The translations under genes were made by a program, and so were the position numbers. Below the pieces are notes generated by a model. The model was not told the DNA's origin. It made no database searches and saw only the letters and a program-made list of their open reading frames with translations. Shown here piece by piece: positions 48,867 through 50,847 of a stretch of 52,934 bases of DNA; position 1 is the first letter of the stretch; each line of letters begins with the position of its first letter. The stretch comes from an archaeon (GTDB lineage: Archaea; Nanobdellota; Nanobdellia; Woesearchaeales; GW2011-AR15): contig JABHXU010000017.1 of assembly GCA_018657065.1 (NCBI GenBank), positions 107,067-160,000 on the forward strand, given 5' to 3'.

Positions 48867-49802
48867 TTGGTAGATAGAGATTATGTTAAAAAATGTCCTG
48901 AGTGTGGAGGCATAAATTTATTCTTTAATAAAGAAAAAGGGGAAGTTATCTGTAAGGATTGTGGTCTCGTTGTAGAAGAAAAAATGGTTGACTTTGGTCA
49001 AGAATGGAGAGAGTTTGATTCAGCTCAAAGTGAACAAAGAAGAAGAACAGGAGCTCCAATAACTTATACTCAATATGATCAAGGTCTAGGAACTGAAGTA
49101 GGTAGAAAAGCAGATTTATATAATTTAGGAGCCAAAACAAAAAATAAATTTTTTAGACTTAGAAAATGGCAATATAGGATTTCTACAGCAATTGAAAGAA
49201 ATTTAAAATTAGCTCTAGCTGAATTAAAAAGAGTTTCGTCATATCTAAAATTACCTAAATCTGTTGAAGAAGAAGCAGCTAGAATTTATACACTTGCTGT
49301 TCAAAGAGGTTTAGTTAGAGGTAGATCAATGGAATCTGTTGTTGCTGGAGCACTTTACGCTGCATGTAGAAGACATGAAGTTCCTAGAACATTAGATGAA
49401 CTTTCTGAAGCATCAGGAATTGAGGAAAAAGAAGTTGGGAGAACTTATAGGTTTATTACTAGAGAACTTCAAATCACTATTCTTCCTAGTAATCCTATTG
49501 ATTATATACCTAGGTTTTCAAGTTCATTAAAATTAAGTCCAAAAACTCAGAGTAAATCTGTTGAAATAATTGAACTTGCTCAAAAACAAGAACTAACTTC
49601 TGGAAGAGGTCCAACAGGAATTGCTGCAGCAGGTCTTTATGTAGCTGCATTAATTAATGGAGAAAAAAGAACTCAAAGAGAAGTAGCTGATGTAGCTGGA
49701 GTAACTGAAGTTACAATTAGAAATAGGTATAAGGAACTTCTTGAAAAACTTGATTTAGAAGAAGAAATTAAAAAATTAAAGAAAAAAGTAAAAGAAGATT
49801 AG
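48867..49802 (+). CDS. tfb: Transcription initiation factor TFB
   Basis: A 311-aa archaeal TFIIB. The N-terminal zinc ribbon is CPECGG…CKDCGLVV; the B-reader/linker has GQEWREFDSAQSEQRRRTG; two cyclin repeats follow (RISTAIERNLKLALAELKRV and IDYIPRFSSSLKLSPKTQSK as starting points). The C-terminal helix-turn-helix VAGVTEVTIRNRYKELLEKL contacts the BRE. The start is TTG with GGGGTG upstream. A lysine-rich tail ends it, tail to tail with a small membrane protein gene (4-bp overlap). Confidence 0.96.
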   Translation: MVDRDYVKKCPECGGINLFFNKEKGEVICKDCGLVVEEKMVDFGQEWREFDSAQSEQRRRTGAPITYTQYDQGLGTEVGRKADLYNLGAKTKNKFFRLRKWQYRISTAIERNLKLALAELKRVSSYLKLPKSVEEEAARIYTLAVQRGLVRGRSMESVVAGALYAACRRHEVPRTLDELSEASGIEEKEVGRTYRFITRELQITILPSNPIDYIPRFSSSLKLSPKTQSKSVEIIELAQKQELTSGRGPTGIAAAGLYVAALINGEKRTQREVADVAGVTEVTIRNRYKELLEKLDLEEEIKKLKKKVKED

Positions 49803-49993
49803 ATATTTTTTCTCTTTTTTTTAAATTCAAAATAATATATAGCTGCAGTTACAATACTAAACAGTAAAGCAAATATAGACCATAATATTTTTGAGCTTAT
49901 TTTAGAATTTTTATTTCTTGTCCAAATTTCAAAAAGAACCCAACTACCACATAGTAAATGTGCAAGTCCAAATATAATGTTTGTTATTTCCAT
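49799..49993 (-). CDS. Small two-helix membrane protein, PLDc_N-like
   Basis: A 64-aa protein with two hydrophobic helices and a basic C-terminus. The second helix and tail (SKILWSIFALLFSIVTAAIYYF) match the next gene's product (KKIMWTVLALFFNVITAIVYYF), so they are tandem paralogues. The layout resembles the PLDc_N membrane domain of phospholipase-D-like proteins, here standing alone. Confidence 0.65.
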   Translation of the reverse strand: MEITNIIFGLAHLLCGSWVLFEIWTRNKNSKISSKILWSIFALLFSIVTAAIYYFEFKKKRKNI

Positions 49994-50030
49994 TTTTCTA
50001 AAAATTTATTATTAATAAAAAATAAAAAAA

Positions 50031-50210
50031 TTATTTATTTTTTACAACAAAATAATATACAATTGCTGTGATAACGTTAAAGAATAGAGCAAGAACTGTC
50101 CACATAATTTTTTTTCCTGTACTCATTCTTTGCTTTGCAAAAACATCATAAATTACCCAGATAGCACAAGCTAAAGGTATTAATCCAATTAAATAATTAA
50201 CAATTCCCAT
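50031..50210 (-). CDS. Small two-helix membrane protein, tandem paralogue
   Basis: A 59-aa protein related to 49799-49993 (see that entry for the matching segments). I set the start at ATG 50210 because GGTGATAAAAAA lies directly before it; the longer frame to 50255 has no ribosome binding site. The first helix is YLIGLIPLACAIWVIYDVF. It has the same strand and spacing as its sister, suggesting a local duplication. Confidence 0.65.
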   Translation of the reverse strand: MGIVNYLIGLIPLACAIWVIYDVFAKQRMSTGKKIMWTVLALFFNVITAIVYYFVVKNK

Positions 50211-50254
50211 TTTTTTATCACCTATTAAATTATGAAAAAAGATAATGAAGTCCA

Positions 50255-50626
50255 TTATTTAAATTTATATAGAATTTTATCAAAATTCACTATTTTATTA
50301 TTTTTAATTTGGATTCCTTCTTTTTTTAGTATATTTATTTTTTCAGAAATTTCTTTTCCTTTTGTTTTTCCTTTAAATCCACCTATATTTCCATCACTTT
50401 TTACAACACGATGACAAGGAACTTTTGGAGTGTCGGAAATCGAAGATTTCTGAGCATGATCAGAAATGTTTTGCATTTCTGACACATAGGGATTACAACG
50501 CATAGCGTTTCCCACAGCTTGATATGCTTTAGTTTCTAGGGCGTTACTGATTTCTTTATATGTTGTTACTCTACCTTTAGGAACTTTTTTTAGAAGAGTG
50601 TAGCATTTTTCATTAAACGTTGTCAT
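50255..50626 (-). CDS. ogt: Methylated-DNA-protein cysteine methyltransferase (Ogt/ATL type) with palindromic insert
   Basis: A 123-aa C-terminal MGMT domain that repairs O6-alkylguanine by suicide transfer to Cys. The active site PCHRVV (C71) is intact, as are RVTTYKEIS, AVGNAMRCNPY and the Arg-finger region. There is no N-terminal domain. Between NPY and PKVPCHRVV, where relatives have one or two residues, there are about 18 extra residues (48-66) encoded by a 54-bp palindromic repeat. The frame stays open, so the enzyme may still work if the loop tolerates it. Confidence 0.9.
   Translation of the reverse strand: MTTFNEKCYTLLKKVPKGRVTTYKEISNALETKAYQAVGNAMRCNPYVSEMQNISDHAQKSSISDTPKVPCHRVVKSDGNIGGFKGKTKGKEISEKINILKKEGIQIKNNKIVNFDKILYKFK
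50431..50484. repeat. 54-bp palindromic element inserted in frame in ogt
   Basis: Ends are near-perfect inverted copies: TGTCGGAAAT at one end and ATTTCTGACA at the other. Each half folds by itself: CAGAAATG-TTTTG-CATTTCTG on the right and CGGAAATC-GAA-GATTTCTG on the left. The length is exactly 18 codons with no stop in the ogt frame. It has the form of REP or Rickettsia-type palindromic elements. Confidence 0.7.
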
Positions 50627-50695
50627 ATTTCTAAATAAAAGAAATTCTTTTTTATTTCTTTTCCTTAACCAGCTATAAAATTCTTACAAATCAAC

Positions 50696-50749
50696 GAGCG
50701 GAACTATTCTAATTGTGGTGCTCAAAGGGGCGCGAGGAACGGCGCCTAA
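50696..50749 (+). ncRNA. GC-rich island with hairpin motif copy 2; candidate small RNA
   Basis: In an otherwise AT-rich intergenic region (50627-50847) this stretch is strikingly GC-rich. GAGC/GCTC (50696-50699 with 50720-50723) could close one stem, and GGCGC/GCGCC (50729-50733 with 50742-50746, loop GAGGAACG) forms a second. The latter repeats the motif at 20869-20890. The strand is chosen because the wobble pairs of copy 1 only work on the plus strand. It could also be a repeat element. Confidence 0.4.
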
Positions 50750-50847
50750 AAACTATTTTACTCTAATTATTATTAACTTCAACTTCACTTAAACTTAAAG
50801 AAATGTATATATAAGACATATACTTAACAAATTTCAGGTGATTAGCA

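Follow-up and report, generated by a model that had tools for sequence, protein, structure and literature searches.

A palindromic double-hairpin element read in frame in the ogt gene of a Woesearchaeales archaeon and its proposed mobile family

The ogt gene of a Woesearchaeales archaeon, whose genome is designated G000, contains a 54-bp palindromic element that is read in frame (50431..50484, minus strand; positions refer to the window, the whole 52,934-nucleotide stretch of this genome that was analysed). The best explanation is that the element belongs to a short double-hairpin mobile family of Woesearchaeales and neighbouring orders, with the stems TCAGAAA..TTTCTGA / TCARAAA..TTTYTGA. With a probability of roughly 0.86, this palindrome is mobile but non-autonomous, owes its persistence to one translatable frame and works like the Rickettsia palindromic elements (RPEs). 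The family, its range in Woesearchaeales, the double-hairpin form, the insertion into an RNA gene and the coding sublineage are new here. The case for mobility is built on dispersed copies and empty sites, since the data, in fragmented assemblies, hold one genome per species.

On the minus strand, the element has the layout TG-TCAGAAATGCAAAACATTTCTGA-TCATGC-TCAGAAATCTTCGATTTCCGA-CA, with the stem TCAGAAA..TTTCTGA present twice between TG...CA ends. Hairpin 1 (TCAGAAAT-gcaaaac-ATTTCTGA, 50460..50482, minus strand) encodes SEMQNISD, and hairpin 2 (TCAGAAATC-ttc-GATTTCCGA, 50433..50453, minus strand) encodes QKSSISD. The spacer between them, TCATGC (50454..50459, minus strand), has the form NNATGC in the majority of copies, and GCATGC is common in other genomes. 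Peptides of the element include SEMQNISDHAQK and SETKVSDDAQKPK, the element ends being TGTCAGAAA. The MFE of the ogt element is -23 kcal/mol, compared with -10.0 ± 2.4 kcal/mol for 200 dinucleotide shuffles (z -5.33; 0/200). The covariance model scores it at 60.4 bits with an E value of 2.3e-11 in a search of the window, where it is the sole copy.

The host gene (50255..50626, minus strand) encodes the C-terminal domain of O6-alkylguanine-DNA alkyltransferase, 123 aa in length (Pfam DNA_binding_1, PF01035, E 1e-20), which resembles the solved alkyltransferases 1mgt, 1sfe and 1qnt. The insert splits an Ala codon between bases 1 and 2 (G|CT) and turns NPY-A-PK into NPY-VSEMQNISDHAQKSSISDT-PK; the frame is unharmed, and the active-site PCHRV (Cys71; 50405..50419, minus strand), four residues past the insert-coded stretch, is intact. 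An orthologue search in a set of 60 genomes, G000 among them, yielded an alignment with NPY-A-PKVPCHRV or NPY-S-PKVPCHRV against NPY-VSEMQNISDHAQKSSISDT-PKVPCHRV in the window. Most orthologues match residues 1–48 and 66–122 as two abutting pieces with nothing between them, and the ogt of the same-genus relative G002 is also without the insert. When exactly these 54 bp are deleted, G meets CT to form an alanine codon and the sequence becomes NPYAPKVPCHRV; one orthologue has CCTTATGCACCTAAAGTTCC. Since excision restores an orthologue-type sequence, the insertion was precise, 54 bp in length and without net duplication. The earlier note on this DNA had described a 54-bp palindrome with inverted ends and two internal hairpins, lying between NPY and PKVPCHRV and leaving the frame and active site intact. 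The palindrome is confirmed at 50431-50484, the intact frame and active site are borne out by translation and alignment, and the comparison of orthologues that the note suggested revealed the empty site at the residue level, orthologues being without the extra residues.

As judged from the sequence, the probable translation product is an Ogt with 18 additional residues forming a loop beside the active site, and this protein may keep its activity. An RPE-containing product stays active, as shown for guanylate kinase. Single-sequence structure prediction of Ogt, made without an alignment, gave a pLDDT of 38.6, which is too poor for use. Directly downstream of ogt, at 49799-50255 of the window, two neighbouring minus-strand ORFs of 64 and 74 aa encode small membrane proteins that resemble paralogues of each other. 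Between ogt and the neighbouring gene, a GC-rich stretch (gggcgcgaggaacggcgcc, window 50690-50755) can be noted in this AT-rich genome; it has no match in Rfam.

Searches by DNA similarity, pattern and covariance model placed at least 18 copies of the element in the G000 assembly (1.49 Mb, 25 contigs), the analysis covering these searches and the regions surrounding their hits. Eleven are ORF-borne, including those in ogt and two other ORFs. Two copies each were found in the eS19 tail and in an ORF with histidine-phosphatase and FtsY (SRP54) domains; single copies are located in the linker after the lipoyl domain of 2-oxoacid dehydrogenase E2 (PDH E2), in an AAA ATPase, in a DUF7121 coiled-coil protein and in an ORF resembling ribosomal L14e, which is without a Pfam match. 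In the single ORF L028:457-2424, the histidine phosphatase domain precedes FtsY (SRP54 domains), and each has a copy of the element ahead of it; this ORF is possibly a gene fusion. The 16S–23S spacer and the RNase P RNA contain one copy each, and the remaining copies are intergenic. No exact match to the strict palindromic pattern was found in G000, which suggests that its own copies mostly belong to the coding sublineage or are diverged.

The RNase P RNA of G000 (RF00373, 124 bits) has exactly 52 added bases, TGTTGAAAATGG...TTTCTGACA (TGTTGA..TCTGACA), after GATGATG in the P12 region. In the alignment, this insert is absent from G007, G004 and G003, which belong to the same family, and from G059 and G013; once it is excised, the length of rnpB equals that of its orthologues. 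This copy has no coding role, which indicates that the unit is DNA and not a peptide. The RNase P RNAs of G003 (L240), G013 (L244) and G059 (L239) contain different hairpin or double-hairpin inserts at other positions, which suggests further palindromic families in the order Woesearchaeales.

All 11 genic copies of G000 have the same strand and frame (consensus ISETKVSDDAQKPKKVSDK) and give peptides like (I/V)SETKVSDDAQKPKKVSDK; their lengths are 54 or 60 bp, all multiples of three, in frame 0. Every genic copy of G059 also has a length divisible by three, whereas the lengths of its non-genic copies are spread over the three residues modulo 3 (7, 7 and 6). Lengths divisible by three were counted for 17/17 genic and 11/27 non-genic copies (Fisher p 5e-5), but the "genic" label requires an open ORF, so that survivorship accounts for part of this bias. 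In addition, two of the six copies counted as genic in G059 lie on antisense ORFs that are possibly spurious. The element is 51–60 bp long in genes and 48–97 bp elsewhere. When the coding elements of G000 and G059 were translated in six frames, the sole frame open in all of them was the observed one. For many coding copies, which lie in tails rich in Lys and Glu, alignment cannot reveal an empty site.

Further copies, which the earlier note advised looking for, proved to be many in G000 and also occur in its relatives; they are palindromic at the DNA level, and their stems show compensatory changes. Neither of the outcomes that the note had named as refuting its reading was observed. With an E threshold of 0.01, the covariance model detected copies in 30 of the 60 genomes; with the stricter 1e-4, 65 of 371 genomes sampled from the phylum were positive, all of them in the same class and most in the same order. 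Copy number among related species ranges from 0 to more than 20. A scan of 84,980 bacterial and archaeal species with the exact gapped pattern returned 68 stretches labelled as Woesearchaeota, Nanoarchaeota, DPANN or unclassified archaeon. The sole exception is the Nomurabacteria-labelled contig LBZW01000015 (L188), which bears the element; the contig may be mis-binned, or the element may have been transferred. Among 2.9 million viral contigs, no match to the pattern was found, and the viral contigs contained no relative of ogt. A literature search for palindromic elements in Woesearchaeota found nothing relevant.

In G059, 54-bp copies lie in frame inside GatA, GatE, Trm1 and DUF371 proteins, with peptides like MSEMQSISEHAQKPLVFDK; the alignments of GatA and GatE with solved homologues have a gap at the element peptide. 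The coding type was detected in ribosomal-protein tails (uL10, eS19, S3ae, S24e, S6e) of G245, G131 and the isolate BS150m-G68. Coding copies of G000 and G245, which represent different families, are 86–91% identical over 56 bases, whereas the level of DNA identity of the S19e cores of G000 and G131 is 63%. This difference points to spread after the lineages separated, by transfer or recent dispersal. In contigs JACQXV (L150-L207) of one Woesearchaeota genome, a longer repeat, tggcatcctaaatg...aatcggtctata, encloses many identical 54-bp copies, the majority of which do not lie in conserved genes. At L109:2047-2283 (G008:C72), four diverged copies form a tandem head-to-tail array outside long ORFs.

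In an alignment of 85 distinct rows, 97.4% of pair cells hold standard pairs, although fitting the rows to the model biases the alignment toward pairing. Two-sided changes were observed at 11 of 17 pairs, in 146 cells; shuffled controls gave 40 ± 12 such cells, and pairing drops to 25–62% when the partner is slid by 1–3 columns. Compensatory stem changes thus far exceed both controls despite the model-fitted alignment. The coding sublineage has TC in place of TG at its left end, and a single stem pair is disrupted in 25 rows.

TG/CA ends were found at 35 de-duplicated sites. Position -3 of the target is A in 26/35 sites (p 8e-8) and position +3 is a pyrimidine in 31/35 (p 1e-7), which gives a symmetric but weak preference, ANN^NNY. 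Flank repeats of at least 3 bp occur in merely 2/35 sites, and the lengths of ogt and rnpB fit those of orthologues on excision, counter to target-site duplication. A symmetric target bias without duplication argues for a site-recognising enzyme. The Y1 (IS200/REP-type) transposase, the obvious candidate, was rejected as the mobiliser: in a survey of Y1 alone across 60 genomes, it was absent from G000 and occurred in 11/30 genomes with the element and 11/30 without it (p = 1).

The strikingly constant peptide invites a different reading, in which SETKVSDDAQKPKKVSDK would be of use as a linker or tag and would have passed from one coding gene to another by recombination, the palindrome being a by-product of repeated codons. 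The copies of G000, G245 and G131 are indeed mostly coding, many of them in disordered ribosomal-protein tails, and the TC left end and broken stem pair of the coding sublineage also fit. However, the copies in RNase P RNA, the 16S–23S spacer and intergenic regions have the same hairpins and ends, and those in RNA genes in particular strain this reading; moreover, the stems covary at the DNA level, and intergenic lengths in G059 are mostly not divisible by three. We regard it as improbable. It is unlikely, though to a lesser degree, that the coding sublineage has been domesticated, so that a peptide of mobile origin would now have a role in ribosomal-protein tails, with the ogt copy a plain recent insertion. 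The ends of this sublineage are asymmetric and coding-adapted, and it recurs in the tails of eS19, S3ae, S6e, S24e, uL10 and the L14e-like ORF in several genomes; however, this recurrence may merely reflect tolerance, because such tails accept almost any hydrophilic insert.

The stability of the double hairpin (z -5.33) would also be expected of a cis-acting RNA hairpin, a processing or stability signal that happens to fall in a coding region. Such a signal is very improbable for an element that interrupts unrelated ORFs, and RNase P RNA as well, at internal positions, is missing from orthologues, has no fixed position relative to genes and varies from 0 to more than 20 copies between related species. 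A chance palindrome or ordinary Ogt length variation, to which only the general variability of this Ogt loop points, is refuted by the dispersed copies and is also at odds with the fold z, the empty site and the covariation; its probability is practically nil.

For a mobile palindrome, the following mechanism can be proposed. A candidate trans-acting enzyme, host- or element-derived, would move the element, possibly acting on its hairpin form. Copies in genes would survive when the frame TCA-GAA-... is read, because this frame contains no stop and yields a short hydrophilic peptide, which folded domains would carry as a loop and disordered tails freely. The majority of other frames would run into a stop. 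The element may be selfish in character, as the earlier note supposed.

In-frame palindromic elements have so far been regarded mainly as a curiosity of Rickettsiales, apart from a single archaeal report. A family that is abundant in many Woesearchaeales genomes and seems to have dispersed recently, with copies in GatA, GatE, Trm1, Ogt, FtsY and RNase P, would demonstrate that translatable selfish DNA evolved convergently in reduced archaea. The mobility mechanism could be sought in such a system, whose target preference is measurable. It is also a warning that annotated insertions and ribosomal tails of DPANN proteins may be mobile DNA and not function.

Several known systems share some of these features. 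Like MITEs fused to coding frames, the archaeal element is small, non-autonomous, bounded by inverted repeats and at times fused in frame. Most MITEs (Correia/NEMIS, ERIC, YPAL) have TA termini and target-site duplications (PMC2229807), whereas the archaeal element has TG/CA ends and no duplication. Paired hairpins without target duplication are also characteristic of REP/BIME, which are mobilised by Y1 (RAYT), an association that the archaeal element does not show across the 60 genomes surveyed; according to PMC3733652, REPs usually lie outside genes and bear the tag GTAG or CGTC. PARCEL (palindromic amphipathic repeat coding sequence) of Mollicutes and others is likewise a palindromic coding repeat, but it is a tandem surface-protein domain, unlike the element, and its authors found none in archaea (PMC2996958).

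Contrary to the earlier note, which knew of no established archaeal counterpart, PMC2229807 cites palindromic repeats with coding potential that are reported as fused into protein genes of Methanocaldococcus jannaschii (Suyama et al. 2005). The 84,980-species scan found no match to our pattern in M. jannaschii or other Methanocaldococcus, and these elements are compared here by description. Those presented by Suyama, Lathe and Bork in 2005 are reportedly old and diverged, with only three in coding regions. Unlike them, the Woesearchaeales element has tens of copies, is near-identical across genes, extends order-wide and occurs in an RNA gene.

RPEs are dispersed palindromes that interrupt unrelated housekeeping genes without breaking the frame and also occur in RNase P RNA; a recurring peptide is encoded by one of their frames, the mobilising enzyme is not known, and Wolbachia has also been reported to contain them (PMC2229807, PMC10969869, PMC3767692). 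The archaeal element is likewise palindromic and dispersed; it keeps the frame of unrelated protein genes whose orthologues have the site empty (ogt, GatA, GatE), and it is inserted in RNase P RNA. The parallel with Rickettsia drawn in the earlier note is thus matched by frame preservation across many unrelated genes and by the RNase P RNA insertion. In contrast to RPEs of about 100–150 bp, however, it is 54 bp long, has two tandem hairpins around a spacer and an archaeal host, and its pattern had no match in Rickettsia among the 84,980 species scanned. Being half the size, unrelated by pattern and archaeal, it is not a member of the RPEs. We tentatively propose, at somewhat short of even odds, a wider picture of order-wide archaeal mobile hairpins that are translatable, have no sequence relationship with RPEs, evolved the same trick of a single hydrophilic frame free of stops, move without duplication and with mild target specificity, and have been repeatedly recruited into ribosomal-protein tails.
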